Of a stretch of DNA of 64,000 nt, positions 18,635-47,325 are shown piece by piece. This DNA is from Hygrophila difformis (lineage: Eukaryota > Streptophyta > Magnoliopsida > Lamiales > Acanthaceae). A program made the position numbers and the translations under genes. The first letter of the stretch is position 1. Each line of letters starts with the position of its first letter. The notes under the pieces are model-generated. The model did not search any database, was not told the DNA's origin, and worked only from the letters and a program-made list of their open reading frames with translations. Where the stretch lies: assembly GCA_030278955.1 (NCBI GenBank), contig JAOANR010000014.1:30641453-30705452 (forward strand), read 5' to 3'.

Positions 18635-18636
18635 TA

Positions 18637-23965: not shown

Positions 23966-23966
<1 letters not shown>

Positions 23967-24023
<57 letters not shown>
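23967..24023. repeat. (AAT)n microsatellite
   Basis: About 18-19 uninterrupted ATA/TAA triplets. Confidence 0.95.
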
Positions 24024-26822: not shown

Positions 26823-27100
26823 ATCTATATAATAAATCCTGAATATTTTTTGGCATGTTCAGACTATATTGCCCTTATTGAATTTTATATTTTTATCTTA
26901 ATTTTTATTAAAAAAAGATAAACTTAAGGTTACATCTGTAAATCATTACAAAACATCATAAAACATATATACGGTTATTATCACGACACCTCATAAACGC
27001 CACGCAATCCTCTCAAAAATAGCAGATGCTGACATGTGGCATCTATAAAATACTCTTAAATCAATTTAATCTATTTTAAATATTCTTCAAAAATATCTTT
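26823..27100 (+). repeat. Dispersed ~275-bp repeat, copy 1
   Basis: Starts ATCTATATAATAAAT and continues through CACGACACCTCATAAACG and TGCTGACATGTGG. A diverged direct copy lies at 27590. The TCTATATAATAAA start resembles the 5' ends of plant Helitrons, but no 3' hairpin-CTRR end was found. Confidence 0.6.
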
Positions 27101-27589
27101 CTAAGATTTCATCTATATTTAGAAAATAAATCTATATATTAATATAAAAGATCTTGAGAAAATCTTTCTGTGTATTTTAAAAAGATATAAATTAGAAATA
27201 AATTAAATTACATAATTATATTTTATATCTTTTAAATATATAATTAAAATTATATATTATAAATTATTTAACTTTATATATAATATTATTAAATGAATTT
27301 TTATTATAATTATATTAAACTTTGAATCTTAAATATTAATTAAACTTTGAATCTTAAATATTAACAAAAAAATAAATAAACTAAAAAAATCTTAATTAGT
27401 AATAATCAGTCAATTTATCAAAAAGTATATATATATATATTTAATATGAAATATAAATTTATAGGTGTTACACAATATAATATTATGCAAAATAAAACAT
27501 GTTTCTTTCTAAAAAAAAAAACAGGGCCAAAATAAAAACTTTGAAAAGTCGATGAGTGTTAAAATGATATTTCCAAGGAAAATGTGGAA

Positions 27590-27869
27590 ATCTATATAAT
27601 AAATTCTGAATATTTTTTGGTATATTCAGAGTTTCAGACTGTGTTGCCCTTATTGAACTTATATTTTTATCTTAATTTTTATTAAAAAGATAAACTTAAT
27701 ATTACATCTGTAAATCACTACAAAACATCATGAAATATATTACAGTTATTATCACGACACCTCATAAACGTCACGTCATCCTCTCAAAAGTACCAGATGC
27801 TGACATGTGGATCTATAAAATAATCTTGAATTAATTTAATCTATCTTAAATATTCTTCAAAAAAATCTG
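27590..27869 (+). repeat. Dispersed ~275-bp repeat, copy 2
   Basis: Diverged direct copy of 26823-27100, with the same start and the same ending AAATATTCTTCAAAAA. The 490 bp between the copies is AT-rich with an (AT)n run near 27427. Confidence 0.6.
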
Positions 27870-28200
27870 ATAATGGCCATTGTCCATTATTTCCAATCCA
27901 TTTCCGCGTCTGAGACGGACATTTTGATCGTAATTCCATCTTATTTTAATAAGATAGCAGTTGAATTCGACAGATTAATGCAAGTTTATAAGAAAAATAA
28001 GCTGGTAATGAAAAACACAAAAATATGCAATTTTAATTGTATTTGTGTTAGAAAAATCCAAAAACATGAAAAATGAAGGAAAAAGAAAAGAAAAAGGAAT
28101 GAAAAGATGGGCAAAAGAATAAAATAGCCCACAAAAATAAAAAAAGATAGGAAAAAGAATGAAAATCCCACAAACTAAATTTTTGGCTAAGTGTGGAAAT
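27870..28200. other. Purine-rich non-coding stretch
   Basis: A-rich run of AAAAGAAAAAGAAT-like sequence. It ends GGCTAAGTGTGG just before the palindrome array, which faintly recalls an Athila-type polypurine tract. Confidence 0.4.
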
Positions 28201-28630
28201 CAATTCGGTCTACGCAATTCGGTCTAAACCGAATTGCTCATTAGACCGAATTGCTGAAGAGAAGAAGAAGAAAAATGGACAAGTGTTGAAGAAGAGAAGC
28301 AGATTAACCAATTCGGTCTGTGGCAATTCGGTCTAAACCGAATTGACCCCTAGACCAAATTGCACTATGGAAAGAAGAAGACCCTGAAGATAAAGGAGAG
28401 ATGCGATTCGATCTATGCAATTCGGTCTAGACCGAATTGATCGCATAGACCGAATTGCCTCAAAAGAAAGCCAAACAGGAGCCATCATCAATTCGAAAAG
28501 GCCAATTCGGTCTACACATAGACCGATGAATGAATACCACATTCCAGCTAAAGATCAAGAAGGAAGATCTCATGCAATTCGAATTGCACCAATTCGGTCT
28601 AAACCGAATTGCATGAGGAGACCGAATTAC
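28201..28630. repeat. Compound dyad array 1
   Basis: Five modules at about 28201, 28310, 28403, 28490 and 28574. The central palindrome is CAATTCGGTCT joined to AGACCGAATTG (perfect at 28418-28439), flanked on each side by a further half-site in inverted orientation. A shorter CAATTCGAATTG palindrome also occurs. Spacers between modules differ in sequence. Confidence 0.9.
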
Positions 28631-29607
28631 ATTCAAAATTGAATCCAAATGAAGCTTTGGAGCACGTGGGAAATACATGACACTGTTGATGGGCCCTGAT
28701 GGGCCTAGGGTTTCGAGTAAGAAGTATAAAAGCTGATCTTCCTCAACACATGAAGATATACTACACTTTACAAAGATTCGGCTTGGGACAAAAAGAAGTA
28801 GCAGGAGCTGTTCTTCACCCCTTAAGGGTTAGGTAGGTAGTTTAGTTTAGTTAGTTTATTTTTATGCATGTAGCTCAGTTTTTGATGTTTTAATCTTAGT
28901 TTATTTTTGTAGAAGCTTGTTACTACCTTTAGAGTAGCCATTTCCATACATTTTACATGCTTCGTAGTTTGAATAAACCCTACCTTCAAGTTAATGATGG
29001 TTTTGGGTTATTTACCTTGCTTTCAAGTGCCAATACAAGAAGAAATTCCAGAAATGGGTTTTATTTCATGTGTTTGACACTCCTTAAATGCTTTCCTAGC
29101 AATAAATGTTAGAATGTTTGTTTGTTTCAACTAGGTTACATTTATTATGTCCTAGTTGACTTACATTCTCAATAAATGCATGTTTAGTGGGTTTTGGTAT
29201 GTTTTTATGCCTTAGAGCTTCAAATGAGTGTTCTTAGGTTTTAGATAATTTTAGGGTTGTTAGAATTAATTTTAATGCTTTATTTTGCTGTTTTTGTTCT
29301 TTACATTTTAGTTTATTGTTGTCTTAGATAATGTAAGTGTTCTTATTTTATGCATGTAGTTCTTAATTTCTAAGTGTTTTAGGTTCTTAGATCTTTGAAT
29401 TTCTTGTTTGTAGAATTCGGGTTTGATTCATACCACTGCCTACTGAACATGTACCAAGCTATTTCCCTTAAATTGCTCACTTGTGTGGCTGTGAGGTGAC
29501 ACTGATGTGAAATGAAGGATTTGGTAAATCTCATCCATCATAAACTGCACAGTGGAAACCGAACTTGTACTTGTGAGCACAAAATACACTTATGTGAAAA
29601 ATGGCAT
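28631..29607 (+). other. Non-coding transcript-like or LTR-like region with TATA box
   Basis: TATAAAAG at 28725-28732 follows the dyad array by ~95 bp. Downstream is T-rich, ORF-poor DNA (GTTTAGTTTAGTTAGTTTA, repeated TTTATGCATGTAG) like Athila/Tat LTR U5 or leader sequence. I infer an old LTR, but I found no paired copy. Confidence 0.35.
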
Positions 29608-30054
29608 GCAATTCGATTTAAGGCAATTCGGTCTAAACCGAATTGCCCATGAAAATGGAAGTGCATGGTAAAAAATGTTTGTTAGATTCCTTATATAAAA
29701 ATCTATATGCAATTCGGTCTAGGCGCCCTTGAGACCGAATTACATAGCAAAAATTGTTCTCACATGGTGCACAAGCAATTCGGTCTATGCAATTCGGTTT
29801 AGACCGAATTGCTCCCATAGACCGAATTGAACTTGTATACCATATTGTATGCATTCCATCTCCTCATGCATTAGTTTATTTTCTTTGTCTTACCAATTCG
29901 AATTGCCAATTCGATCTAGACCGAATTGACTTGGCAATTCGAATTACCCTCATTTTGGAGTAAATGCCTTGTCCAAATTTGAGTAAGGGAATGACTTCAT
30001 CAATTCGAATTGTCGAATTCGGTTCAGATCCAATTGCTTCGACAATTCGAATTA
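29608..30054. repeat. Compound dyad array 2
   Basis: Modules at about 29608, 29710, 29776, 29894 and 30000, built from the same AATTCGGTCT half-sites plus several CAATTCGAATT short dyads. The gag-only element at 30096 is inserted into this array; the next half-sites resume at 37299. Confidence 0.9.
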
Positions 30055-30090
30055 GATGATGTTTCATATCTTTGCAAGGATTAATTGGGT

Positions 30091-30095
30091 AAGGC
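30091..30095 (+). repeat. Target site duplication AAGGC, left
   Basis: AAGGC directly precedes TGTAACACC of the inserted element and is repeated at 37270-37274. Confidence 0.95.
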
Positions 30096-30475
30096 TGTAA
30101 CACCCTGGTTTTTGGTCACCCAGGTCGGGGTGTCACCGCCACACCTCCTTAGCGAGACACGGTTTCTCCGAGCTCACTAAAGAGATGCAAGGCTATGGTT
30201 TTTCAGAATTTAAAACGTTCAAACAGCCCATTCATATATAATTTAAAAATAATACATCAAAGTTGCAGCGGAAAATAATAATTACATATGTATAATGCAG
30301 CGGAATTTAAATATAGGGCCAACATGGCCTAATCACGGGTTAAACAGGCCCGTTCATGCAAGATCTAGTCTAATACAAAAGTTCAAAATAATATATCATC
30401 CCAAGCTTCCCGTGTATGCATATGACGATGCATAATTCTCAACTCTAGAAGAAAAAGAAATAAAATTGGTTTGGT

Positions 30476-30490
30476 CAGCACTACGTGCTG
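30476..30490 (-). promoter_or_regulatory. Conserved LTR stem-loop (CAGCAC / GTGCTG)
   Basis: Perfect 6-bp stem with 3-nt loop, flanked by TTAACTTACT and ACCAAACC as in the other LTRs. The second LTR has it at 35059-35073. Confidence 0.6.
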
Positions 30491-30764
30491 AGTAAGTTAA
30501 CACAAACATGACTATGAGGTTTCAAAGCCTTTAATTAAATTTAGTAAAAACATGCTTATAGGTAATATACAATTTAGTTCATTCATCCACTAATAATTAA
30601 ATGGCATGATTCTAAACACGGATTTCCACATGAGCGTAATTCAAATTCCATGGTAAGGTAATCGCAAGACATAATTTAAAGGCATAATTTAAATAAGGAA
30701 AATATTCAAGTATTTCAGAATTTCACTCTTCCTCTTTTATTCGATATAATCTAGTATAATTTAT

Positions 30765-30930
30765 CCCTGGGGAATCGAACCCGCAAGGTTTGACACAGAC
30801 ATCCTGGGGAATCGAACCCGCAGGAAAACATACACCCTGGGGAATCGAACCCGCAAGGTTTGACACAGACATCCTGGGGAATCGAACCCGCAGGGACACA
30901 GACGCCCTTGGGGAATCGAACCCGCAAGGT
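30765..30930 (-). repeat. Five tandem ~35-bp repeats, each with a Pol III B-box match
   Basis: On the element's sense strand each unit contains GGTTCGATTCC, an exact match to the tRNA B-box/T-loop consensus GGTTCGANTCC, within TGCGGGTTCGATTCCCC. No A-box, acceptor stem or anticodon arm is seen, so these are not tRNA genes. Confidence 0.85.
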
Positions 30931-32690
30931 CAAAACAAGTTTCACAAATCTCCCAAGTTTCAACATATAATTTCACTAGTCGCTGTTTTGCTCCAAAAAT
31001 ATTTAAAAATTCATCTTAAGTCGGATCATTCTGAAAATTTATTGGTAACTCCGAAACACAGAGATGAACAAGTTTCATGTTTTACGTTTTTCAATCCGAG
31101 ATACGGAAGTAGGTGAAAAATGTCAACCTTTAACAAGATATTAATCTGTCCGAAAATTCTGACATCAGTTTCAACGTTTCAAGATCTACCATAGCAAACT
31201 AACTCCAAATTTGATGACATTTTACAGAGAGATACCTAAGACATATACCTACAACTTTTATGTTCGGCTAAAGTTCCAAATCGGTTTAGATCTAATGTCA
31301 AAACGTCATCAAGTTCGAAACTAATTTTGTTCAAGTTTCTTGATTTCGGTACGAACGCAGATCGGATCGGCTCAGGTTCGGAGGTTCAAATCTTAACGAA
31401 AAATTCTAAAATTTTACAGAGATGTTCTAAGCTCATAGATCTACAATTCTTATGTTCAACGCCAAACCTAGATCGGTCTAGATCTAAGGTAAAACTCAAC
31501 CTCAAGTTCGGATAAAAAATCTAGCACCGTTTCAAGATCTAGATCGAAGGCAGGTCTGTTCACGGTTGTTTTCGGATATCAAAACACGATGAAAAATTAT
31601 GAAAGTTTTACAGTAGATAGATCTATGTCTTAGGAACGTTTTTTGTGTTTTAAGTTTTCTCGTTTGAACAGATTTAAGGGTTCGGAAAAATTATGCAAAA
31701 ACGTTGCGCCGTTAAAGATTTCGTTTGACAGATTTTTAAGTTCTTGATTTAAATCTTTAGATTAGATGTATTTTAACTTACCCAAAACCATAGTAAGGTT
31801 AAATTACAGATTTACGGATGTCTCGGCTCGATGATTCGGAGGCGTGGCTTCCACGTTCTTCGTTCTCCCTCCGAGATCCTTCGTTTCCCCTCAACGCGTC
31901 CGGATCGGGGTTTAGAATAGAAAAGAGGTTTAATTAGGATTCACTTTCGAATTGTATATGGAACAAGGATTGATCGAGGCTTACCACAACGCTGGAGATC
32001 TTGCAATTTTCGTCCAACAGTCCAAGCCTTGGTTTCGTGCCTCCGACGACTCCGGATTTAGAGTTTCGAATGTATAGAGAGATTTCGTAGGGTTTCGTCA
32101 AGATTTTGGGGCTTCCAAGAGGGTTTATTTATAGATAGCTAAGACCTAGGGCGTCCAAGATCTGACTCTAAGAGTCTAGAGTCGAAAGATGTTCAACCGA
32201 AAGTCGAAAAATCCGCGTTCGGGCGAGAGATTCACGCAACGGGCGAATCTGTCGCTTGGCGCGGGGTTGGCGCGGTTTTCTCACAATTAGCGCGCGGCCA
32301 GCGCGCCAGACACGCCTGGACTCCGGTCCGGGCGGGTCGTGCGATCCGTCGTGCTTTTCCTCCTTTCTTTCGGGTTTCTATCCCTCTATGCTCTCGGATT
32401 CCAATTTCCGGACTCTCTTCGGGTTCCTATTTCGTGTCGTTATTTCTTTCGGATCAAATGTTACGTTTTGGTTTCGAATTCTCGAGTTCATTTATATCGG
32501 ATACCCGTGTAACGACTTATTTAACTTTATTTAATTTCTTTTGTTTAATTAAGTCTCTTTTAATTAATTTCATTTCTCCCTTCTTCTATATTTATTTATT
32601 TAATGTATTTACTGATTTATTTGTTTATTTATTTATTTATTTATTGTATTTATTATATTTATTTATGTTGTAAAATTCTCGGGTATTACA

Positions 32691-32705
32691 GTCTACCCTC
32701 CTTAA
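32691..32705 (-). promoter_or_regulatory. Polypurine tract
   Basis: On the minus strand CTTAAGGAGGGTAGAC abuts the TGTAATACCC start of the 3' LTR. Confidence 0.7.
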
Positions 32706-32914
32706 GAATCAACTTCGTCCTCGAAGTTGTGTTTCGGCTTTTCTCGTGCAAAGGTCTTTTGTTTATTTTATTATTTTGTGACTGAACTTAGAATTAAGAC
32801 TTCTAAGCTGCCTACGTACCCGGTGAAGGGATCAAGCCATAACGTAGTTCAAAACAATTTGAATATGTTTATTTATTCATTCGGAATACATATCGTCAAT
32901 AAATGTCTATTTTA

Positions 32915-32942
32915 CGGGGTATTACATCCTCTCCCCCTTAGG
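32915..32942 (-). promoter_or_regulatory. Internal second polypurine tract with LTR-start mimic
   Basis: The minus strand reads AAGGGGGAGAGGATG, then TAATACCCCGT: a purine tract followed by a near copy of the LTR start, ~225 bp before the true junction. Confidence 0.6.
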
Positions 32943-32974
32943 ACTTCAGTTATGTCCCCATAACTGCCTACTTA

Positions 32975-34039
32975 TTATTCTCTTCCTTGATCTCCTTGTT
33001 GAGGGTTTACCAATTCTATCCTCTTCTCAATCTCCTCCTCACGAACATTACATTCTCTAATCATGTGGTCTTCCCCACCACATCTATAACAAGTCCCGCG
33101 CCTTGGGCACTCGCGCACCAGATGGGCTTGGTGGCACTGTGGGCAACGGGGTACGACTGTACGACGTATGCCATTTCTCCCATTATAGAAATCCTTATTC
33201 TCGTTCCTATCTTGTCCACCGTTATTGCTCCGATTCTTCTTCTCAACTTCTTGCGAGTCCTTGCTCGACTCCCCATTTTCCTTACGCTTCAGTTGTTGGA
33301 CTCGATCAATTGCTACAGCTCGATCATAAACCGTCTGCAGGTTCGGGAATTGTCCTACTGCAAGTATCTCCCGGATACTAAAGGTCAGACCCATCTCGAA
33401 TTTCTGAGCCTTGTCAGAGTCGGTTGGTACTATTCTCGTAGCAAATCGTACTAACTCCTTAAACCGGGTGTAATACTCCTGCACCGTCCGTCCCTCTTGC
33501 TTTAGTGATAAAAACTCTTCGTACATTGCCGCCTTGGTGCTCATGGGGTAGAAGCGGTCCCTTAGATCCTCCTTCAGTTTAGTCCACGAATAAGCTTCTT
33601 CAGCTTCCTCTAAATTCCTCTGGAGGTCTTGCCACCACTCATCGGCTTCGCCTCCTAAGTAGTAGGTTGCTACTCGTGTCTTTGCCTCATCAGGACATTT
33701 GATAGCATCCAAGAGCTTATCAAATGTACGGATCCACCCCTCTAGTTTGGCGGGATCCTCCTGCCCATCATAGCGTGGTGGTTAATAGGGATTCACCAAC
33801 GCTAGATAGTTGGTTTGAGCTACGGGCGGAGGTACTGCTGCAGGTGTCCTATGCACCTCCGCATTTCCTAATGCTACTAGGATTCCCTCTATCGTTTTTA
33901 AACGTGCTTCCATATTATTGGGCGCTTGAGGCACTTGCTCTCCTAGGTTCTGAGGACTTTCACTGTTGTTGGGCGTGTTGGAAAGGTTAGCGTCAGTGCC
34001 GTTTGGACTCACCTTCCTTGGTTTTCTCCTAGGCGCCAT
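32975..34039 (-). pseudogene. gag: Retrotransposon Gag with one nonsense codon
   Basis: The frame opens at the ATG of MAPRRKPRKVSPNGT (34039) and is the counterpart of the intact gags at 1066 and 5906. A TAA at 33782-33784 interrupts it after LALVNPY, where the other copies have CAG for Gln. The same frame then continues for the rest of the protein: ATYYLGGEADEWW, RDRFYPMSTKAA, a basic linker, and two complete knuckles, CPQCHQAHLVREC and CYRCGGEDHMIREC. Unlike the copies at 1066 and 5906, the second knuckle keeps its His. Without the stop it would be 354 residues. It is the only coding region of the element. Confidence 0.9.
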
Positions 34040-34662
34040 TTTCTGTTATAACTTGTATAGAGATTAGTTTATCTTGGTTTAGATAGATCGCTCGAACAAG
34101 ACGTTTCGTAATTTCTAATTTCAAATTTTCGGATTTGTTGTTTGGAAATCCAAACAAGATTTTTGGGAATAAAGAGTGTTTTAATAAACCTTGATTTTTT
34201 TTATTGTTCCTCATGAGGAAGTTTTCTATTTCGTACTAGGATAGGAATGGCTAAAGCCGAGATTTGTTATGCTTAGGCGTGCGCTTAGATGAACGCGATC
34301 TAGAACTAAGGCAAGATCAGTCTCTAGTGAGCGTTTCTAATTCGATGTCAAGTCTCTATGTTATCCGGTGGAAGCAAAAGACCTAGGTTAAACTTCGCCA
34401 AGATTCTAGGTTAAAATTCGCCAAGATTCTAAGTTCGAATTCGCCAAGATTCTAAGTTCATAGAAGAGATGCAATATGCAAATGCAAATGATGATTTACC
34501 CCCAAAAATAATTTAATGCACTATGTATATATATATATTTTTTTCCATGGGTTTTAAAATAAAAATTTCTTCCATGAAATCAATGCTTTAAAATAATAGT
34601 CAAAGTATTAATAATAGTTTAAAAATAATAATGGTTTAAAAATAATAGTTTAAAAATAGCCG
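34040..34662 (-). other. Untranslated leader of the minus-strand element
   Basis: Lies between primer site and gag. It has three imperfect AAATTCGCCAAGATTCTA-like repeats near 34385-34460 and AT-rich sequence. No ORF of note. Confidence 0.6.
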
Positions 34663-34675
34663 GGCTCTGATACCA
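34663..34675 (-). promoter_or_regulatory. Primer-binding site, initiator Met tRNA
   Basis: The minus strand reads TGGTATCAGAGCC three bases after the 5' LTR ends. Confidence 0.92.
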
Positions 34676-34678
34676 ACT

Positions 34679-37269
34679 TGTAACACCTCGGTTTTTTGTC
34701 ACCCAGGTCGGGGTGTCACCGCCACACCTCCCTAGCGAGACACGGTTTCTCCGAGCTCACTAAAGAGATGCAAGGCTATGGTTTTTCAGAATTTAAAACG
34801 TTCAAACAGCCCATTCATATATAATTTAAAAATAATACATCAAAGTTGCAGCGGAAAATAATAATTACATATGTATAATGCAGCGGAATTTAAATATAGG
34901 GCCAAAATGGCCTAATCACGGGTTAAACAGGCCCGTTCATGCAAGATCTAGTCTAATACAAAAGTTCAAAATAATATATCATCCCAAGCTTCCCGTGTAT
35001 GCATATGACGATGCATAATTCTCAACTCTGGAAGAAAAAGAAATAAAAATGGTTTGGTCAGCACTACGTGCTGAGTAAGTTAACACAAACTTGACTATGA
35101 GGTTTCAAAGCCTTTAATTAAATTTAGTAAAAACATGCTTATAGGTAATATACAATTTAGTTCATTCATCCACTAATAATTAAATGGCATGATTCTAAAC
35201 ACGGATTTCCACATGAGCGTAATTCAAATTCCATGGTAAGGTAATCGCAAGACATAATTTAAAGGCATAATTTAAATAAGGAAAATATTCAAGTATTTCA
35301 GGATTTCACTCTTCCTCTTTTATTCGATATAATCTAGTATAATTTATCCCTGGGGAATCGAACCCGCAAGGTTTGACACAGACATCCTGGGGAATCGAAC
35401 CCGCAGGAAAACATACACCCTGGGGAATCGAACTCGCAAGGTTTGACACAGACATCCTGGGGAATCGAACCCGCAGGGACACAGACGCCCTTGGGGAATC
35501 GAACCCGCAAGGTCAAAACAAGTTTCACAAATCTCCCAAGTTTCAACATATAATTTCACTAGTCGCTGTTTTGCTCCAAAAATATTTAAAAATTCATCTT
35601 AAGTCGGATCATTCTGAAAATTTACCGGTAACTCTGAAACACAGAGATGAACAAGTTTCATGTTTTACGTTTTTCAATACGAGATACGGAAGTAGGTGAA
35701 AAATGTCAACCTTTAACAGGATACTAATCTGTCCGAAAATTCTGACATCAGTTTCAACGTTTCAAGATCTACCATAGCAAACTAACTCCAAATTTGATGA
35801 AATTTTACAGAGAGATACCTAAGACATATACCTACAACTTTCATGTTCGGCTAAAGTTCCAAATCAGTTTAGATCTAATGTCAAAACGTCATCAAGTTCG
35901 AAACTAATTTTGTTCAAGTTTCTTGATTTCGGTACGAACGCAGATTGGATCGGCTCAGGTTCAGAGGTTCAAATCTTAACGAAAAATTCTAAAAGTTTAC
36001 AAAGATGTTCTAAGCTCATAGATCTACAATTCTTATGTTCAACGCCAAACCTAGATCGGTCTAGATCTAAGGTAAAACTCAACCTCAAGTTCGGATAAAG
36101 AATCTATCACCGTTTCAAGATCTAAATCGAAGGCAGGTCTGTTCACGGTCATTTTCGGATAACAAAACACGATGAAAAATTATGAAATTTTTATAGTAGA
36201 TAGATCTATGTCTTAGTAACATTTTTCGTGTTTTAAGTTTTCTCGTTTGAACAGATTTAAGGGTTCGAAAAAATTATGCAAAAACGTTTCGCCATTAAAG
36301 ATTTCGTTTGACAGATTTTTAAGTTCTTGATTTAAATCTTTAGATTAGATGTATTTTAACTCACCCAAAACCATAGTAAGGTTAACTTACAGATTTACGG
36401 ATGTCTCGGCTCGATGATTCGGAGGCGTGGCTTCCACGTTCTTCGTTCTCCCTCCGAGATCCTTCGTTTCCCCTCAACGCGTCCGGATCGGGGTTTAGAA
36501 TAGAAAAGAGGTTTAATTTAGGATTCACTTTCGAATTGTATATGGAACAAGGATTGATCGAGGCTTACCACAACGCTGGAGATCTTGCAATTTTCGTCCA
36601 ACAGTCCAAGCCTTGGTTTCGTGCCTCCGACGACTCCGGATTTAGAGTTTCGAATGTATAGAGAGATTTCGTAGGGTTTCGTCAAGAGTTTGGGGCTTCC
36701 AAGAGGGTTTATTTATAGATAGCTAAGACCTAGGGCGTCCAAGATCTGACTCTAAGAGTCTAGAGTCGAAAGATGTTCAACCCAAAGTCGAAAAATCCGC
36801 GTTCGGGCGAGAGATTCACGCAACGGGCGAATCTGTCGCTTGGCGCGGGGTTGGCGCGGTTTTCTCACAATTAGCGCGCAGCCTGCGCGCCAGACACGCC
36901 TGGACTCCGGTCCGGGCGGGTCGTGCGATCCGTCGTGCTTTTCCTCCTTTCTTTCGGGTTTCTATCCCTCTATGCTCTCGGATTCCAATTTCCGGACTCT
37001 CTTCGGGTTCCTATTTCGTGTCGTTATTTCTTTCGGATCAAATGTTACGTTTTGGTTTCGAATTCTCGAGTTCATTTATATCGGATACCCGTGTATCGAC
37101 TTATTTAACTTTATTTAATTTCTTTTGTTTAATTAAGTCTCTTTTAATTAATTTCATTTCTCCCTTCTTCTATATTTATTTATTTAATGTATTACTGATT
37201 TATTTGTTTATTTATTTATTTATTTTATTTATTTTATTTATTTATGTTGTATAATTCTCGGGTATTACA
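34679..37269 (-). mobile_element. 5' LTR of the minus-strand gag-only element
   Basis: In minus-strand sense it runs from 37269 (TGTAATACCCGAG) to 34679 (GTGTTACA). It is collinear with the LTR at 30096. It carries its own B-box repeat block (35348-35513, one unit with a C-to-T change in the box) and stem-loop (35059-35073). Confidence 0.95.
35348..35513 (-). repeat. Five tandem ~35-bp B-box-like repeats, second LTR
   Basis: Same arrangement as 30765-30930. The third unit is altered (AACTCG), breaking its GGTTCGATTCC match. Confidence 0.85.
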
Positions 37270-37274
37270 AAGGC
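37270..37274 (+). repeat. Target site duplication AAGGC, right
   Basis: Identical to 30091-30095 and directly after TATTACA of the element. Confidence 0.95.
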
Positions 37275-37298
37275 AATACTTCATCCTTCATGCATCCT

Positions 37299-37340
37299 CA
37301 ATTCGGTCTATTATGCACCTTACCTAGTAGACCAAATTGA
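37299..37340. repeat. Continuation of dyad array 2
   Basis: CAATTCGGTCTA and an inverted TAGACCAAATTG half-site 18 bp apart, continuing the array interrupted at 30096. Confidence 0.8.
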
Positions 37341-38356
37341 CATCCTCCTTCTATTTTAAAATTTTAAAAATATTTTATTTCTTGATTTGTGTAAGTTGCA
37401 TGGATGTATTGGGCTTAGGCCCATTACATCTAATTTTATCCATTACACATCTCAACCCGTTAGTGTCTCAATTATTGTGTGATTAATACTCACACAGTAC
37501 CAAAAATATTTTGTTAAATTCATCTTTTCTGTTTATTGTGTGTATGAATGGGTAATAAGGAATATCACAGATCAATGTTGGAAAAAAGGTCCCTTCACCG
37601 GGATAACGATTAGCTCGTCTTCTGTGTATTAATTATTACTCGTTATTTTGCATGGTCTGATTAGTGGTTGGTGAAGCTACGGCAAAAAGGTCCCTTCACG
37701 GGGATAACGATTAGCCACTCAGCCAACTCCTAATTAGATACAGTTTTCTTTTCTTTATCTTAATTTCAAACCTGAATTTCAAACTGTGGTAATATTAGGC
37801 AGTGTCGATCAACACTGTTATAGTAATACTATAGTAAGAAAACATGTGGGTTTATCCTTATTCATGGATAGTAGGACTCTCAATGATAGCGATCACTGTC
37901 ATTAAGGGATCCTTACTGTCTAAAAATCATTCCATCTGGAATAATCGGGAACTGGATGGCAGATGTTTGCAGTCCAAATAACCCCAGTTATTTCTGGCAC
38001 TCTTTTAGCCAATTCTTCTTTTCTCATGGCTAATCCATCTTTATGTACCAAATTCTGTCTAACCCCACCATATATTTTGGGGTATTTTATTTTACTTCTC
38101 ATATACATGTATGCATAATAAATTTCCACAAAAATCACTATCAAATACGGATCTGAGTAAGGGATAAATTCGACAGTTATGACTAACTCATATTCCACTA
38201 GGGGTTGATTTTGAGAACTTAGAAGCAGATTCAGCGATTAGGTCTCTCCTAGACTGAAAAGATCTGTGTTTTAATTAAGAGTTTAGTACCTGTTTAGGGA
38301 ATGATTTTCAAATATCTATTGTTTTCTCAAAATTACTGTGTGTTGGAAATCTTCTA
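37341..38356. other. Non-coding, probably upstream LTR/flank of Athila-type element
   Basis: Contains a ~33-bp direct repeat (AAGGTCCCTTCAC(C/G)GGGATAA at about 37582 and 37683). A 92-aa frame on the minus strand (37920-38198) has no recognised relatives and is probably chance. Confidence 0.4.
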
Positions 38357-38615
38357 CTTCCTCCGTTTTCAAATCTTTTTTACATACCCACTTTTCACGC
38401 AGTCCAATGCACATTTTAAACCATTAATAACTCAAGTTCGGTACAAGTAAAAATCTAAAAGTTCAATATTTAAAAACTACTCGACGAGACGAATCTAACA
38501 AGATCCCACTTGACTATATTTTAACCTGTATAACTATGATAAAACTTTAAGTAAAAGTCTGTGGGTGAATAGTAACACATTAATAAACGTCAAGAACATA
38601 TGAAAACGGAGGAAG
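38357..38615. mobile_element. Stowaway-like MITE, 259 bp
   Basis: Ends CTTCCTCCGTTTTCAAAT and (reversed) CTTCCTCCGTTTTCATAT, flanked by TA on both sides. The interior (GCAGTCCAATGCA...GAGACGAATCTAACAAG) is shared with the MITE at 20173 in inverted orientation. Confidence 0.9.
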
Positions 38616-39892
38616 TATTAAGTATTGCATCGAATTAGTGTCCACTTGGACTCGGATAAGATGTGATAAATAATACTAGAGGAACAACATATAGACCTTG
38701 GTTAATTTCTAAGGTAGGGTTGAGTATTCTTTCAACTACTGTCTTCTCCCGCCAAAGCCTAGAATTGAGTCTTGAGTGAGTACATTCAGAATAGATCTTC
38801 AAAGGTCTGTTCCACTCAGTTTGTATCTCATAACTAACCGGATGTTATAAGTCCTGTGGCTTACTGATATCTGGGAAGTTCTAAATCTGCATCTGGTCAC
38901 CAAGACCAGGGGCTCTTTTATACTAACGGAATGAGATAGCTTTTAAAACTTCCGATGATAGGTTTTTAAATGCTTTCCTTACTGCTTCCTTTACCGCTTT
39001 CTTTAAAATGCTTTCATAGAGGTCACTCGGAAGAATTAGAGGTTGGCCGCCGGTTGTAAGGTTTAAGAGTTATGGATTAGTTCGGGAATTAATTTGGACT
39101 TTGGGTGTGACAAGGGAGATGATAGGAGTACTTGGCATGTCAACTAATGATGTGTTAGGTGTTGCTTATCCACCATGGAGGAATAACATACCTCGGCAGG
39201 GGCAGTTATTAATCTGTGGTATCTTAGAAGTTGAGGTCTCAAGAACATGTAAATTCTGACTGTAAGTACCTGTCTGTTAAAGGGTACATAGTCCAGAAAG
39301 CATGAGAGTTAGCTAACTGATGAATTAGCCCAACCAAAGATCTGTGTAATAAAAATGGAAGTTTACTTGTGTCTCATCTGAAATCTTGTCCAATCTTTAT
39401 TATTTCCTTCCCGTCCCTTCTGTCACATTTTAAATCTGCTTTCATAGAATAATTTTATCCGCTTTCTTAGCATAATTCTTATTACTTCCTTAGAATAAAT
39501 TTAATTGCTTTATAGCGTAATTTTATTGTGCTTTGTAGAATAACTTTAATTGCTTCTATAGTATAGTTTAAATTAATGTCAAGTAGTTGTTAAAAACCAA
39601 TGCAAAGCTTGAATCGAGTAACCGAGTGGAAAATCTTAGTAAACGACGTGGGCCCTGCTTCTATCGCACGTCCTCCAGTGAACGATCCGGTCTTACTATA
39701 AATACTGCAATTTTTGACTCCGTGCGCTTTCGGGGGCACAGTTTCCTACATGAGTATATAAAAACGTGACAACCTATATACATATCCCTAATCCCAACTC
39801 CATCTTCATAATTGGTTTCATTGAATAAAATTAAACCGGGATTATTATTTTTCAGAAAATACTCATATAGTGGGAAATTGTCAAAAGTTTCA
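38616..39892 (+). mobile_element. Probable 5' LTR portion of Athila-type element
   Basis: Ends AAAAGTTTCA immediately before a tRNA primer site. The segment CCGGTCTTACTATAAATACTGCA...CCGTGCGCTTTCGGGG resembles the U5 region of Athila/Tat LTRs. The left LTR boundary is not identified and no matching 3' LTR is found. Confidence 0.5.
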
Positions 39893-40088
39893 TGGCGCCG
39901 TTGCCGGGGATTTTCATGGCGCCATTTGAAATCAAAGTTTCCGACATGAGTAATAAAAAGTGAAACATATCCTTAAACCCCTTCCCATAAATCATAACTC
40001 TTTTCATTTAATAAATTCAAACTTGATATTTTAGAAAATACTCGTGTGTGGAAATTGTCAAAAGTTTCATGGCGCCATTGCCGGGGAG
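39739..40088 (+). repeat. Tandem duplication of LTR end plus primer site
   Basis: Two diverged ~160-175-bp units (39739-39911 and 39929-40088) both contain AGTTTCC(T/G)ACATGAGTA, an AAATTGTCAAAAGTTTCA stretch and the primer site. The second site (40070-40087) reads TGGCGCCATTGCCGGGGA. Confidence 0.85.
39893..39910 (+). promoter_or_regulatory. Primer-binding site 1 (Athila/Tat type)
   Basis: TGGCGCCGTTGCCGGGGA, the usual Athila/Tat primer site, directly after the LTR CA end. Confidence 0.85.
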
Positions 40089-40215
40089 GATGCAGCGCCG
40101 TTTATTAAGAGAATTACACTCCTGATTTACTCATAGATAGTTTTTGTATATATTCTTGAACCGTTACTAACCTGGGGGTTGTGCAGGTGCTGTCAAATCG
40201 TGATACAAACTGCTT

Positions 40216-42084
40216 ATGCAACGGAGAAAGGACACATTGCCTGAGCTACCGTTCGATCTAGAAATAGAAAGGACCGCTCGCCAACTGAGGGCACAAGCCA
40301 GATGAAGGAAAGAGCAAGAAGCACGGACTCGTACCTCACCCGAAACTACAAGCAGTGAACTATCTGACATGGCAGAAAACCAGGACATTCCCCCGATCTT
40401 ACCAATAGACCAACCACCCAATAACCCTGGTAATGGAGCTGATGGGGGTATAGTAGAACATCCGAATCACGCCAACGAGGAGGAGAATCTACCTAACCTA
40501 AATCAGCAACAGTATCAGCAATTCCACCAACAACCGCCACCACCTCTTAACCAATATAACCACCAAAATCTGTTCCAATACCAGAATCAAGCCTTCAATC
40601 AAGATCAGTTTCAAAACAACCCTCATGATCCTGAAAATCTGTTCCAACAGAATCCCAACTACCATCAGCAATACCAAAACCAAGCTGAACATGGAAATCA
40701 ACAACAGCAGGCAGCTGATTTCATGCAGCCAATCGTGGAGCCTTATCTGGATAGGCCTGGAAGAGCACAATTTCCTGCACGCAACTTTGAGCTCAAACTG
40801 GCACTCATTAATTTGGTGCAAAACAACCAATTCTACGGTGCAAATCATGAGGATCCCCATGATCATCTCTAAACCTTTCTGGAGCTCTGCGATACAATAA
40901 AAAATCAGGGAGTCTCACCTGATGCTATAAGACTGATGTTGTTTCCTTTTTCTTTGTTTAGTGGTGCCAAGGATTGATATAAATCATTGCCTATAAATCA
41001 GAGGAGCACCTGGGCAGATTTGGTAAGGAGTTTTCTGTTGAAGTATTTTCTTGAATCAAAGATAGAAGAAGGACGAGCCAAGATTGGAGAGTTCAAGATG
41101 AAGCCGGACGAGTCATTGTATGACGCAAAAGAGAGGTTCTCCAGCCTCTTGAGGCGATGCCCCCAACACGGATATCAGCCATAGGAGCAACTAAGGAAAT
41201 TCTACGGAGGGCTCACCCATCCATGGAGAACGATGTTAGACGCTGCAGGAGGACGACATTTGCTTCATTTGCCCATGGACCAAGCCTGGGAAAAGATTGA
41301 AACTATGTCTGTAAACATATCTGTTTTGAACACTGATGAGAGGAAAGTGGACCCTCATAGAAAAGTTTTTGCTGTAAGTGAAGGAAAGATAGATTTCGAA
41401 AAATTGCAGGAACAGGTGGCTACGATACAGCTAGGTCAGGAAAAAGGAAAGGGAGCAGGCACTTCTCAGGCAGGAGCTTCATCTAGCCAAGTGCAAACAC
41501 AGCAATCGGGAGTAATTTGTGGGCTATGTCAGGGACCACATCCAACTGACACGTGCCAACAAATAGCTACCGAAAGCTGCAACTACGCAGGGAACTACCA
41601 GAATCGCCACCCCAACCTCTCCTATTCCAACAACAATGCACTTATTGCGCATTTGTTGTCGCAGCCAAATCAGCCTACCCAGTTTGCAAACCAAAATCCT
41701 CAGCAGAACTTCAGACCTCATAACCAAGGATTCGTTCACCAGAGAGTACAAAACTTCCAAAATCAGAATCAGAACTTTCAACCCCATATCCAACAGAGGC
41801 CTAACCAAAACCAAGGCAAAAATTTCCAAAACTTCCAAGCCCAACCTGACCAGAATCAGCAATACAACCAAAAGCCACCATCCCGCCTGGAGAATTTGAT
41901 GACCGAGTTTATTTCCAATCAAAGGGAGATAAACCAGCAGTTGCAGTCATCGATCAAAAATGTGGAGACGCAGGTCACCCAGTTGGCTAAGGAGTGCAGA
42001 ACAGGGGGAAGGGAAAACTACCAAGCAGCACTGAAACCAACCCGCAATGCAAAGCAATCACATTGCGGGGAGGCAAGACTCTGA
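40216..42084 (+). pseudogene. gag: Athila-type Gag with in-frame stops
   Basis: Start taken at the ATG of MQRRKDTLPELPFD, which precedes the usual Athila EIERT motif. One frame then runs through a Pro/Gln/Asn-rich stretch, HEDPHDHL, ELCDTIKNQGVSPDAIRLML, the ESLYDAKERFSSLLRRCPQHG block, and a CGLCQGPHPTDTC knuckle, followed by a long Gln/Asn-rich tail and RLENLMTEF. Stops interrupt it at 40303-40305 (TGA), 40870-40872 (TAA), 40975-40977 (TGA, at the usual Trp) and 41182-41184 (TAG). The 5' half of gag therefore cannot be made whole. It shifts frame near 41990 into the protease region. Confidence 0.9.
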
Positions 42085-42989
42085 AAGGAAACGTTGGATC
42101 CGGGAAGAAGAAAGCTGTGAAAGGAAAAGAATCAGTGGAGATTGAGAGGGAACAGGAAAAGATTGAAGGAGATAGAAGTGTTGAACTGGTAAAGGACAAA
42201 TCAGATGCAGCTAATCCGCAGGCTGAAGCTGCAATTGAAGCTGAAAAGGGTATGGGTGAAGGTACAACTTCCTTCTCTTTACCACCAAAAATTGATAATA
42301 ATAAGTACATGCCAAGGGTGCCACACCCTGCACGTCTTAAAAATAAGGAACATGACCTTAAATTCAAGAAATTTCTGGAACGATTAAAGTCTGTAGAGAT
42401 AACCATTCCTCTCGTGGAAATGATTTCAGAAATGCCCACATATGCTAAGTTCTTGAAAGAATTGATTTCAGGGAAAAGGCAGGTAGAGCAGGAGGAGGTG
42501 ATTATTCTCAACAGCACATACAGTGCCATAGTTCAGAGGAAACTGCCCGAAAAGAAAGAGGACCCTGGATGTTGCACGCTGCCAGTACAAATTGGAAAGG
42601 CCAAAGTGAGCATGGGGTTATGTAATTTAGGATCCAACATCAATGTGATGCCTCTAGCCATGGCAATTCGCCTAAGGCTCGGAGAGATTGAACCAATCAA
42701 GATGAAACTGCAACTGGCTGATAGATCAATCACCAAACCCGTAGGAATCCTCAAGGATGTGGTAGTCAAAACCGGCCAAATTCTTTTCCCGGTTGACTTC
42801 ATCATCCTTGACATTGAAGATGACTCTGAAATGCCACTTATCTTGGGACGCCCGTTTCTGGCCACTGGCGGTGCATTGATCGATGCTACATCTGGAAGAG
42901 TCACATTGAGGGTCGACGACAGAGAAATATCCTTTGACATGGAGCAGCTGCAGAAGTTCCCGAATGAGGGATCTTGTTGTTTGATGTAA
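41994..42989 (+). pseudogene. pol: Athila-type protease region of pol
   Basis: It holds the AITLRGGK motif that opens the pol part in Athila elements, a conserved linker (MPTYAKFLKELISGKR), then a pepsin-like retroelement protease: LCNLGSNINVMPLAM, LQLADRSI, FIILDIEDDSEMPLILGRPFLATGGALID split across the fold. The active-site motif, normally D-L-G-A-S, reads NLGSN, so the catalytic Asp is Asn. The frame ends SCCLM-stop, one base out of register with the downstream reverse transcriptase frame. The family call is firm, and activity is very unlikely. Confidence 0.9.
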
Positions 42990-44734
42990 TAGAAGGTAGG
43001 TGTGAGGATGAGAGCATAGACTCTATGACTGTGATGACGGACAAAGTTTCAAAACAGGTACTGACACCTGAAGGTGCCGAGCAACGAAAAAGCTGCAACG
43101 CTGTCCACTTCGAGGACCCTATCACTGGGGATCTTGAAGAATTCGACGGTGTTGAATTCACTCCGGAGGAGGAGGAGAGCACCACGGAAGAGGAAGTGGA
43201 CCCTGTACTGACACAGGGTCCTGAAGGTAAATATGGTCGTTCACCCCCATCCATTTCTCGCAAATTACTGCCTTCTGTTGAATGTCCGCCAGAGCTTGAA
43301 CTTAAAATACTTCTGGATCATCTGAAGTACGTTTTTCTCGCTGAATATAAAAGATTACCGGTAATTGTGTCAGCCAAGCTAACACAAGAACAAGAAAAAG
43401 CTCTGGTAGACATTCTAAAGAAATATGTACATGCAATTGGATGGACCATTTCTGATATAAAAGGAATAAGCCCCTCTGTTTGCATGCACAGAATTTTAAT
43501 GGAAGAGGAGTACAAGCCCTCTAGGCAACCACAAAGGCGTCTGAACCCCCACATGCAAGAAGTGGTAAGGAAAGAAGTTATCAAGCTCTTAGATGCTGGT
43601 ATCATCTATCTTATATCTGACAGTGCAGGTAGTACCTAAGCGTGGGGGATGTGCATAACGACTAATGAGCAAGGAGAAGAAGTGGCGACACGTCCAGTGA
43701 CCGGTTGGAGAGTTTGCATCGACTACCGGAAGCTTAACACCGCTACGCGGAAGGATCACTTTCCCTTGCCATTCATTGATCAGATGCTGGAGAGGTTGGC
43801 CGGGAGGGAGTATTACTGCTTTTTGGATGGGTACTCAGGCTACAATCAAATTGTAATAGCTAGTGAAGATCATGATAAGACCACTTTCACGTGCCCATAT
43901 GGAACTTTTGCGTACAGGCGCATGCCTTTTGGACTTTGCAATGCGCCTGCCACTTTTCAGCGATGCATGATGTCTATCTTCTCAAAATTTATCAAAAAAT
44001 GCATTGAAGTTTTCATGGATGACTTCTCTGTGTATGGAGATACTTTTTATGAATGTTTGACTAATCTTGCAAAAATTTTAAAAAGATGCGAGGACACTAA
44101 CCTAGTTTTGAACTGGGAGAAGTGCCATTTCATGGTCACCGAAGGAATAGTGTTGGGTCAACGCATCTCGCGCGCAGGCATCGAAGTCGATAGGGCCAAA
44201 GTCTCAGTCATATCCAACCTTCCATTACCAAACTCAATAAAAGCAGTTAGGAGCTTCTTAGGGCATGCCGGTTTTTACCGGAGATTCATTAAAGATTTTT
44301 CTAAAATTGCCAAGCCGCTCACTAATTTGCTTTGTAAAGAAAATTCTTTCGTAATAAATGAAGCGTGTGTTCAAGCCTTTGACACGCTCAAGAAGATGTT
44401 GATTTCTGCTCCAATAGTGCAACCACCCGATTGGTCAATACCTTTCGAGGTAATGTGCGATGCAAGTGATCTTGCCGTGGGTGCAGTTCTTGGGCAACAT
44501 AAGGAAGGGAGACACATCGTGATTCATTACGCAAGTCATGCCCTGACTGAAGCTCAAGTCAATTACACCACCACGGAGAAAGAGATGTATGCTGTGGTTT
44601 TTGCGTTTGACAAATTCATACAATACCTCATTGGTACGAAAAACATAGTATACACAGATCACTCTGCACTGAGATACTTGTTCAGCAAACAAGATGCCAA
44701 ACCTCGATTAATCAGGTGGGTACTTTTGTTGTAG
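42974..44734 (+). pseudogene. pol: Athila-type reverse transcriptase and RNase H
   Basis: The first part (42974-43639) leads into the RT fingers: PVIVSAKLTQEQEKAL, AIGWTISDIKGISPSVCMH, EVIKLLDAGIIYLISDS. Around 43625-43650 a small deletion with frame change removes the usual WVSPVQ segment; VQVVPKRGG is visible in another frame. The frame resumes at [12 protein letters not shown], with [23 protein letters not shown] and the catalytic box [10 protein letters not shown] intact, then the connection domain and RNase H ([39 protein letters not shown]). A TAG at 44732-44734 replaces a Gln before EFDI. Domains are recognisable but the polyprotein is broken. Confidence 0.92.
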
Positions 44735-46081
44735 GAATTTGATATCATAATAAAAGATAGAAAAGGCAGAGACAATGGTGCTGCTGACCATTTGTCTCGA
44801 ATAGAAAATGATAAAAATGAGATAGCCGTCAATGAAAATTTTCCGGACGAGCAACTGTTTGCCTTGCACCTTCATGATCAAGCTTGTCCATGGTTTTCCG
44901 ACATTGCTAACTTTTTAGCATGTGGAATAATCCCACCATTCCAGCACAAGAGCCAAAAAGTAAGGTTCAACCGAGATGTAGTTGACTACTTCTGGGAAGA
45001 TCCTTATCTCTTCAAGCATTGTGCAGATTCGATTATTAGACGATGTGTAACTGAGCACGAGGCTTATCAAATCGCTAAAAAATGTCATGAATCGGAATAT
45101 GGAGGTCACCATGGCCCCACTCGAACAGCTCATAAGGTGCTCGAGTGTGGTTTCTATTGGCCTACCATTTACGAGGATTGCAGGACGTTTGTTAAGGCTT
45201 GCGACAGATGCCAAAGATTAGGGAATATCTCCAAGAGCGATGAAATGCCTTAAAAAGGAATTCTCACCCTTGAGATTTTCGATGTATAGGGTATTGACTT
45301 CATGGGGCCATTCCCGACATCTGATGGGAATCACTACATCTTGGTAGCTGTCGATTACGTGTCCAAGTGGGTAGAGGCGGTTGCGCTGCCAACCAATGAT
45401 GGTAACCAAGTCATCAAATTTTTGGAAAATAACATTTTCCACAAGATAGGCACCCCTTATCATCCTCAAACCAGTGGCCAAGTCGAGGTATCAAACCGCG
45501 AAATCAAACATATACTCGAGGCCACTGTGGGGATACACCGCAAAGACTGGTCACGTAAGCTCAATGATGCTCTATGGGCATATCGCACTGCATTCAAGAC
45601 TCCCATCGGGATGTCTCCATACAGGCTTGTCTTTGGAAAAGCCTGTCATTTACCCGTAGAACTAGAGCACAAGGCTTACTGGGCCGTAAAAACGCTTAAT
45701 TTTGACCCACGAGTTGCTCAGAGTAAGCGCAAGTTGGACCTCAATAAAATTGAGGAAATACGTGCGCAAGCTTATGAAAGCTCGAGGATTTACAAAGAGC
45801 GGACCCAGAAGTTATACGATCGTCGTATAAAGTCTAAACACTTCTATATTGGCCAAAATGTCTTGTTATTCAATTCTAGGTTAAAGCTGTTCCCCGGAAA
45901 GCTTACATCCAGATGGGAAGGGCCATACGAAGTGGTGCACGTGTTTGAAAGTGGAGCTGTCAGGATTCGAACTGACAAGGGAGAGCTGGTGGTGAATGGA
46001 CAAAGACTGAAGGAGTACCTCGGGCAGTTCGACCCCGAAAAAGAAGTTCAAACGATATCAGAGCCGACCTATGTTCATTAA
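44735..46081 (+). pseudogene. pol: Athila-type integrase with core deletion
   Basis: After RNase H the same frame gives DHLSRIE, the HHCC zinc region (CHESEYGGHHGP...CDRCQ), then stops at 45251-45253 (TAA) and 45287-45289 (TAG, at the usual Trp before GIDFMGPF). The first catalytic Asp (GIDFMGPF) and the Glu (VSNREIK) are present. Between [13 protein letters not shown] and [10 protein letters not shown] about 30 residues normally carrying the second Asp (in an SDxGxHF motif) are missing in frame. The C-terminal part ([38 protein letters not shown]) is intact. A transposition-competent integrase is excluded. Confidence 0.9.
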
Positions 46082-46162
46082 AAAAATATATACACTTATA
46101 TAATTATTTATTGCATAACATATTCATTTTTCTCGGGCAATAAGTATCCAAAAATCAATTAA

Positions 46163-46190
46163 ACATTTAGAGTACTAAGACTCTAAATGT
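46163..46190 (+). other. Perfect 11-bp hairpin before a polypurine-like tract
   Basis: ACATTTAGAGT and ACTCTAAATGT flank a 6-nt loop, followed directly by GAGGATGTTGAT. The same GTGAGGATGTTGAT after a TCACATTT/AAATGTGA hairpin occurs at 48721. It probably marks the 3' polypurine tract and LTR start of the Athila-type element. Confidence 0.6.
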
Positions 46191-46558
46191 GAGGATGTTG
46201 ATATTTGGAGAAAATCTAATAATTTTCTTATGTTTGCCTTGCAGGAATTAATGGAACCAACAAAAAGAAAGATAAAGCTTCAAAAACCAGGTTCCCGGTT
46301 GGATTAATACTAAATTTAATGGAAATTAATTTCGGAATTTAGAGAAATTTAAAATCCGGAATAAATCCATAAAATAAGGGTGTTAATCCAACCTAATTTA
46401 TGCAAGCAATTTATTATAGAGTAATATTTCTGTTTAAATATGCTTATTCATTATGTTATTTTTTTTTAAAGAAAATGCATAATTTCAGAAATGGTAAAAA
46501 CTGGAAAATTTCAAAAATTTCTCTAAGTATTGAATGCGGTCTAATTTGCATTTCAAAT
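46191..46558. other. Possible 3' LTR start, non-coding
   Basis: TGTTGATATTTGG at ~46196 could be an LTR start. An 11-bp inverted repeat GGTTGGATTAA / TTAATCCAACC (about 46294 and 46382) encloses 77 bp. No counterpart is found upstream of the element. Confidence 0.35.
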
Positions 46559-47156
46559 CAATTCGGTCTAAATCGAATTGTTTGAAACAGATCGCATCGG
46601 AGGTGTTGCCTTGGTAATTTTTAACAAATCGGTCTCCAAGCCAATTTGGTCTAGACCGAATTGGCCTAAGAGACCGAATTGATCTTGCAAGGCACATGCT
46701 TCATTCTTTGCGTAAATATGGCCAAGTAGCAATTCGGTCTATGGCAAATCGGTCTAGACCGAATTGATTTTGAATAGACTAAATTGATCTACAAAAGGCA
46801 TTGCATCATTCTTATTTTCGCAAGTGAGCAATTCGATCTACAAGGCAATTCGGTCTAGATCGAATTGCCCACATAGATTGAATTGACTCACAAAAGCACC
46901 CCCCCATTATTTTCCTAAGTACTCAATTCGGTCTTCTTACTGCAATTCGGTCTCTAGATCAATTCGGTCTAGACCGAATTGATTTTAAAAGACCGCATTG
47001 CAGTAAGTTATTTGTTTGTCCTTCCCTCAATTCGGTCTCCACATCAATTCGGTCTAGACCGAATTGATGTATAGACCGAATCCCTCACAAACATTGGAGA
47101 CCACATCAATTCGATCTACATCGAATTGATGATTCGGTCTCCAATAGACCGAATTA
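46559..47156. repeat. Compound dyad array 3
   Basis: About seven modules (near 46559, 46635, 46729, 46829, 46923, 47030, 47106). The module at 47041-47070 contains a perfect 30-bp palindrome: ACATCAATTCGGTCT joined to its reverse complement. Another perfect 22-bp dyad is at 46960-46981. It ends ~18 bp before a TATA-like site and 170 bp before the F-box start codon. Confidence 0.92.
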
Positions 47157-47173
47157 CCCCCTTGTCCCACACC

Positions 47174-47182
47174 CTATATACT
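47174..47182 (+). promoter_or_regulatory. TATA box of the F-box gene (putative)
   Basis: CTATATACT, followed by a CT-rich leader typical of plant 5' UTRs, ~150 bp before the ATG at 47326. Confidence 0.5.
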
Positions 47183-47325
47183 TTTTCCCCCTCTTTTCCC
47201 TCACTTTCACTTTCCCACACTTAGAAAATTTCCCGATTCCCTCCATTCGCAAACCCTTCTTCCTTGCGAAACCAGAGCTCTGAGCCAGTGTCTTTACTCC
47301 TTCCGATCATTTCAAGCTTTCTAAA

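Follow-up and report, generated by a model that had tools for sequence, protein, structure and literature searches.

Nested palindromes built on a common 12-bp half-site form candidate protein-binding arrays in Hygrophila difformis

What keeps one short palindromic word alike in three clusters of plant DNA when most of the sequence between its copies shows no likeness? The question is raised by a stretch of 64,000 nucleotides from Hygrophila difformis (contig JAOANR010000014.1, positions 30,641,453 to 30,705,452 of the forward strand), hereafter the window; every result given below refers to this one 64-kb window. An earlier note, made from the letters of the window, had described three clusters built from one compound palindrome, here called arrays 1 to 3. 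Judged from their sequence, the arrays may be clustered sites for a sequence-specific DNA-binding protein, in which selection maintains the half-sites and template switching at hairpins makes the two arms of a module match; we give this reading about an even chance.

All three arrays have in common the 12-bp half-site CAATTCGGTCTA, of which 56 sites were found at ≤2 mismatches. The sequence AATTCGGTCT (≤1 mismatch) occurred 54 times in the window, compared with 4.95 ± 2.15 times in shuffled sequences, and 54 was reached by 0 of the 100 shuffles. Apart from three matches outside the arrays, at 9824, 38051 and 52322, these copies (51/54) lay inside 28201-28629, 29609-30054, 37299-37339 and 46532-47156. 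The limits of the arrays were read from a scan for the 12-bp half-site at ≤3 mismatches, and their parts are as follows, with H and H' denoting the half-site in its two orientations.

28201-28629: array 1, with four full modules (inner dyads at 28215, 28324, 28418 and 28590), a single lone half-site at 28503 and a short form at 28575.
28201-28253: example module, with outer H at 28201, inner dyad at 28215-28236 and outer H' at 28242-28253.
28575-28629: register-shifted module, in which CTCATGCAATTCG begins 6 bp ahead of the module and pairs with CGAATTGCATGAG in the fold (pair 28575/28605).
29609-30054: first part of array 2, with inner dyads at 29624, 29790, 29907 and 30015, and a pair without inner dyad at 29710-29742.
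37299-37339: last pair of array 2, on the far side of a nested insertion.
46532-47156: array 3, with inner dyads at 46559, 46642, 46745, 46846, 46960, 47045 and 47107, and outer pairs for the first six.
46936-47007: most stable module, in which pairing extends beyond the outer half-sites (CTTACTGC ... GCAGTAAG).

Thirteen complete modules were set out on the same plan, namely an outer H, an inner dyad HH' and an outer H'. From the start of the left outer site to that of the inner dyad the distance is 13-17 bp (27 bp in the module at 46532), and from the start of the inner right half to that of the right outer site it is 17-20 bp; the geometry is narrower in arrays 1 and 2, at 13-15 bp and 17-18 bp, respectively. 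Inner dyads without a clear outer pair were found at 29624 and 47107, and pairs without an inner dyad at 29710 and 37299. A short form, CAATTCGAATTG, was present in exact copies only at 28575, 29894 and 30001, and as CAATTCGAATTA at 29935 and 30043; the modules at 29894 and 30001 carry it on both outer sites, exact on the left and with one mismatch on the right. The excess over shuffles and the 13 nested modules confirmed that the three clusters are built from one palindromic module. The module geometry given in the earlier note was broadly right, but array 3 starts at 46532 and not at 46559, and the module period of ~65-130 bp had to be widened, the dyad starts within an array being 62-172 bp apart.

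The first line of evidence is the conservation of the half-site. When the 56 sites were aligned, each of the 12 columns held 1.17-2.00 bits of information, and columns 3, 9 and 11 were invariant in 56/56; half-sites with more than 2 mismatches were omitted from this column analysis. To the left, the adjoining column held 0.44 bits and those further out 0.20 or less (ten columns); to the right, column 13 held 0.11 bits and later columns up to 0.77, a rise that arises because the dyad partner follows many of the sites. Among the 672 half-site positions 43 mismatches were counted, and C>T or G>A changes made up 25 of these. Half-sites contained 59 of the 69 CpGs of the three main array stretches (37299-37339 not counted), and the CpG was retained in 41 of the 46 half-sites whose other positions had no more than 1 mismatch. 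The observed/expected ratio of CpG was 0.28 between half-sites, 0.52 in the pooled noncoding neighbours and 0.89 in the whole window.

The 14 linkers between modules were then compared pairwise against dinucleotide shuffles. Their similarity was at shuffle level in array 1 (mean z -0.21, 6 pairs) and array 2 (-0.11, 6 pairs) and between arrays (-0.07, 0.00 and 0.43; 16, 24 and 24 pairs), and in array 3 it averaged 0.75 (15 pairs) with a maximum of 5.3 in one pair, by eye 46682-46729 with 46787-46828, so that some unit duplication probably occurred there. The view that the sequence between modules is unrelated thus holds for most linkers and fails for this pair. An ordinary tandem satellite, whose whole units should be alike, was rejected on the shuffle-level linkers of arrays 1 and 2; Tandem Repeats Finder flagged only 46923-46970 within the arrays. 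The copies of a miniature inverted-repeat transposable element (MITE) should be alike over their whole length, and the spacers differ between modules of the window; insertion of the modules in the manner of a MITE also seems unlikely, as no direct duplication was seen by eye in the module flanks. Within the window, the motif does not appear to belong to a single ordinary satellite or MITE, which had been named as the competing explanation.

The second line of evidence is that the two arms of a module match each other. In an outward alignment of the left arm with the reverse complement of the right arm, the 15 inner dyads scored a mean of 9.4 within the same module and 5.4 across modules; the former was reached in 0/20000 free permutations and in a fraction of 5e-5 of the within-array permutations. 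With the half-sites excluded, the spacers and 12-bp flanks of 13 modules still matched (p 2e-5 free, 2.6e-4 within arrays). When the right arms were exchanged between these 13 modules, the folds became less stable: the mean energy rose from -30.0 to -24.3 kcal/mol (plus strand) and from -30.6 to -25.4 kcal/mol (minus strand), and 0/300 swapped sets on either strand were as stable as the real one. The dyads at 29624 and 47107 were omitted from the 13-module tests, and the pairs at 29710 and 37299 from all arm tests.

The single components were more sensitive to register. After four module coordinates had been corrected and the better of two spacer anchorings had been taken, both post hoc, the p values were 0/50000 and 8e-5 for the spacers, 0.004 and 0.014 for outer half-site identity, and 0.02 and 0.04 for the flanks. 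In the earlier register, which was wrong in four modules, they were 0.02 and 0.23 over all for the spacers (two anchorings) and 0.06 and 0.08 within arrays, 0.09 and 0.008 for outer half-site identity, and 0.09 and 0.07 for the flanks. The 15-dyad permutation and the arm-swap folding hinge on the inner dyad and depend little on the corrected coordinates. The complementarity of spacers within single modules, which the earlier note had pointed out from a few examples, is thus supported statistically by the permutation of arms and by arm-swap folding. Whole arrays also folded more stably than shuffles (z -9.6, -12.1 and -15.6; two control stretches, -2.0 and -4.0), as is to be expected of any array of palindromes.

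These observations can be joined in a model. A putative protein would read the CAATTCGGTCTA half-site as a dimer on the inner dyad, the outer half-sites would allow a second dimer or a tetramer, and selection on recognition by this protein would maintain the half-sites. Template switching through hairpins, primed by the half-sites, would repeatedly equalise the arms of each module. Such switching between short imperfect inverted repeats is described in PMC8604942 as homogenising arms and yielding multi-nucleotide changes. The likeness of this quasi-palindrome correction to the arrays is that imperfect inverted-repeat arms become identical in multi-base steps; it differs in being described, for yeast and Escherichia coli in the articles consulted, as a mutational process, not as an architecture of arrays. 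The short form on both outer sites of two modules and the module of shifted register would fit templated copying; at 28575 the pairing is out of register, the left flank and outer site pairing with the right spacer and inner half-site (CGAATTGCATGAG being the inner right half-site plus right spacer). Of the interpretation offered in the earlier note, selection on the half-sites agrees with the sharp 12 bp, the CpGs kept inside and depleted between, and the linkers no more alike than shuffles, and a process resembling conversion agrees with arms that match within modules and not between them; for a role in small RNAs nothing spoke in favour.

The surroundings suggest what the arrays might do. 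They lie in noncoding DNA rich in mobile elements, and two of the three stand directly upstream of a TATA word.

28725-28732, plus strand: TATAAAAG TATA word, 95 bp past the end of array 1, preceded at 28690-28713 by TGGGCC and AGGGTTT words, which we take to be promoter motifs.
47175-47180, plus strand: TATATA, 18 bp past the end of array 3.

From this position, the likely output would be control of those presumed promoters or of the silencing of the elements that carry them. Moreover, one half-site serves arrays 1 and 3 although beyond the arrays only A- or AT-rich similarity was found between their surroundings (best 87 bp, 71%, E 3e-6), which counts in favour of protein recognition.

Several points weigh against the protein-binding reading. 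A binding model by itself needs no matching spacers, and a mutational mechanism must be added to it; the dyad spacing of 62-172 bp showed no evident helical phasing by eye; and no TATA[AT]A word follows array 2 in 37340-37900. Because the half-sites were picked by similarity, the level of conservation inside the site is inflated; the sharp edges of the half-site, however, are not explained by such picking. The window-wide CpG ratio indicates that CpG decay is uneven, and the two control stretches also folded better than shuffles, though far less than the arrays. Arm matching is not uniform: the dyads at 28215, 28324, 28590 and 46745 ranked 5-12 of 15 in both directions, and those at 28418 and 46559 ranked 7 and 5 of 15 in one direction. 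Finally, a looser test on all core pairs was only mildly positive (score ≥4 in 4/57 near core pairs vs 5/251 and 11/700, counts converted from fractions).

The strongest rival, which we consider unlikely but deserving of weight, dispenses with function: palindrome-rich, recombinogenic noncoding DNA of mobile elements would be decaying neutrally, with template switching at hairpins and local conversion spreading its half-sites and making them uniform. Arms that match within modules and differ between them are what arm homogenisation predicts, and the related linker pair of array 3 indicates probable unit duplication. Copying tracts should carry their flanks with them, yet from module to module the likeness breaks off abruptly after 12 bp, the linkers of arrays 1 and 2 remain at shuffle level, and CpGs survive in half-sites and are depleted between them.

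The neighbouring features are as follows.

30096-37269, minus strand: nested Ty3/gypsy element with long terminal repeats (LTRs) at 30096-32690 and 34679-37269, splitting array 2.
39893-39909, plus strand: primer-binding-site-like TGGCGCCGTTGCCGGGG, with a one-mismatch copy at 40070.
40306-46081, plus strand: decayed Ty3/gypsy gag-pol, upstream of array 3.
47326-47363, plus strand: predicted exon 1, of 12 codons and 2 bases, followed by GTAAGT.
48817-49258, plus strand: predicted exon 2, which continues the frame of exon 1, with a stop at 49259.

The LTRs of the nested element are 98.0% identical over 2.6 kb and flanked on both sides by AAGGC; the element contains a minus-strand primer-binding word and a gag-type open reading frame (ORF) at 32975-33781 (minus strand) with a gag domain. 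Since it interrupts array 2, the array predates the insertion. Across 12 plant genomes, insertions of LTR elements are described in PMC6911290 as weakly preferring palindromes, with little nesting in LTRs; the nested insertion is compatible with such a preference and proves nothing. The gag-pol stretch holds reverse transcriptase and RNase H domains at 43640-44734 and an integrase zinc domain at 44735-45253, and an integrase core match at 45290-46081 is below its cut-off. The primer-binding word TGGCGCCGTTGCCGGGG is presumably of Athila type; together with its preceding bases it is duplicated (39873-39909 and 40050-40086, 177 bp apart).

Array 3 precedes a predicted spliced gene of F-box type, downstream of an Athila-like pol. 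Exon 2 gave an F-box match (E 6e-4, 20.0 bits) just under the cut-off of 20.5 and a weak match to a plant TPR family (E 0.03). After the stop at 49259, ~40 bp with several stops are followed in the same frame by an open stretch at 49301-49537, with no Pfam match of its own, so this copy of the F-box gene may be damaged, or the predicted gene structure may lack a part. A direct repeat (46100-46222 and 48640-48779) brackets array 3, its TATA word, exon 1 and the intron; its alignment scored 80, against 37.6 ± 6.4 and a maximum of 62 in 500 single-base shuffles, and TGAGGATGTTGAT stands near the end of both copies.

Just upstream of array 1, two repeat copies (26823-27098 and 27590-27868, 88%) start with TCTATATAATAAA or near it, and we take them to be Helitron-like. 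Further out, a stretch of 12.3 kb occurs twice at 99.1% identity (9196-21499 and 51688-64000), the second copy directly after a gap of 500 N (51188-51687); this is perhaps an unmerged haplotype or a misjoin, which makes the order of the sequence past 51188 doubtful. The duplicated stretch contains, at 15081-16879 and 57466-59376, pieces of a Mutator-type transposase (MuDR DNA-binding domain, SWIM zinc finger).

Rather improbable, in our view, is that the arrays are subterminal regions of the CACTA kind, arrays 1 and 2 bordering an element of ~2 kb (nested insert aside) and array 3 forming the 5' border of a second element with an internal promoter and gene. The soybean CACTA element Tgmt* is described in PMC2613891 as having subterminal regions in which a 17-bp motif, repeated in direct and inverted orientation, forms 14 stem-loops; the 159 bp next to one end hold 4 repeats and the 732 bp next to the other end hold 24. 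A 7-bp part of the motif is constant in all 14 stem-loops, and a variable 10-bp part is missing or incomplete in some. As far as this description goes, its subterminal regions, bound by TNPA-like proteins, are the nearest described architecture found, and the statement that no plant element had been described in this way was too strong. Direct and inverted copies of a two-part motif with many stem-loops over several hundred bp, as in CACTA-type subterminal regions, are present in the arrays as well: the short core CAATTCG is seen in both extended and unextended copies, the arrays span 429-625 bp, and two of them precede TATA words. The arrays differ from Tgmt* in lacking detected CACTA termini or transposase, in using a 12-bp half-site in four-site modules, and perhaps in arms that are matched module by module.

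Within 150 bp of the six array edges no CACTA was found, and the one TAGTG there, at 37461 beyond array 2, has no left partner, so that five of the six edges carry neither word. In four wider stretches, CACTA[CT]/[AG]TAGTG occurred only at 27716 and 50395, and the ends may have decayed. A search for inverted repeats with a target duplication of at least 3 bases gave 18 weak candidates (3-4 mismatches in 13 bases), none convincing. Defective CACTA copies can do without TNP2- or TNPA-like genes. When the 24 surrounding ORF stretches that reached at least 70 aa were scanned against Pfam, none matched a transposase, 51188-51687 being gap; apart from the F-box stretch, they gave only sub-cut-off matches (DUF2145, MATH, HJURP_C, DUF5408 and FYVE_CARP1-2). 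As CACTA ends were not found, the arrays were not assigned to CACTA.

There is a slim chance that the modules act in RNA, as nested hairpins of a transcript for processing, packaging or small RNAs. The arrays fold far beyond shuffles and both control stretches, and some two-sided changes preserve pairing, in the inner stem at 47107 and, as read by eye, in the outer pairs of 46829, 46532 and 46625. Among 291 half-site pairs, however, 259 were Watson-Crick, 10 were G.U on the plus RNA, 12 were G.U on the minus RNA (A.C on the plus) and 10 were others; as the mispairs have no strand preference, nothing favours an RNA role, and a source of hairpin small RNAs, one of the three roles suggested previously beside a dimeric or tetrameric binding array and replication or recombination sites, is not favoured. 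The near-equal mean fold energies of the two strands and the position of arrays 1 and 3 upstream of TATA words also speak against it. No Rfam family was found in the arrays, and a known RNA family was rejected, the four Rfam matches of the window all lying at 21705-23045.

It is likewise doubtful that the same modules belong to a single Athila-type retroelement of great length, where they would occupy both the upstream control region and an internal promoter driving an acquired F-box gene that follows pol. The arrays may equally sit in separate elements or at host genes. A TATAAATA word stands 196 bp before the primer-binding word at 39893, so the LTR promoter of the Athila-like element may not be the one beside array 1. 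No LTR pair joined 21500-40400 (nested insert omitted) with 46000-51187, where the sequence enters the N gap, and no shared LTR was found around arrays 1 and 3. If such an element did exist, one factor would activate it together with an F-box protein that might oppose silencing by the host, which would make it the retroelement equivalent of the VANC system. A bacterial or viral origin of the motif was dismissed, because the perfect 22-mer dyad had 0 matches in viral contigs and the gapped dyad had 1 locus there and 18 in bacterial or archaeal contigs, each with one matching position, against a rough uniform-base expectation of about 7 for the latter, and these loci, counted and not inspected, were treated as mostly chance.

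Returning to the reading as protein-binding sites, the arrays would fall among the motif arrays of mobile-element control regions. No plant element bearing the half-site motif was found among the matches listed from the open-licence literature; the letters of the half-site occur in 95 articles, of which the 30 listed seemed unrelated by their titles. In logic, the nearest known system would be the target arrays of VANC21 and VANC6 in Arabidopsis VANDAL elements, where a short motif is multiplied in noncoding mobile-element DNA and read by a sequence-specific protein (PMC5735166); those motifs, however, are of 8-9 bases in tandem repeats, and the words 'palindrom' and 'inverted' do not occur in the main text of that article. 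The heat-responsive elements in the LTRs of ONSEN and other COPIA families are similar in that an element promoter holds several copies of a site bound by a multimeric host factor (PMC3907296, PMC5059998), and the ONSEN proto-element is an inverted pair (PMC5059998). As described there, they differ in consisting of adjacent nGAAn motifs in one or two clusters, and not of 12-bp half-sites in repeated nested modules.

If the arrays are indeed binding sites, they would point to a plant protein with a long 12-bp half-site and to a control architecture common to otherwise unrelated sequences. They would also serve as a natural archive of template switching at hairpins, because in most modules the two arms match each other individually while the word they surround is common to all, and the features kept by selection could in this way be told apart from those made by mutation.

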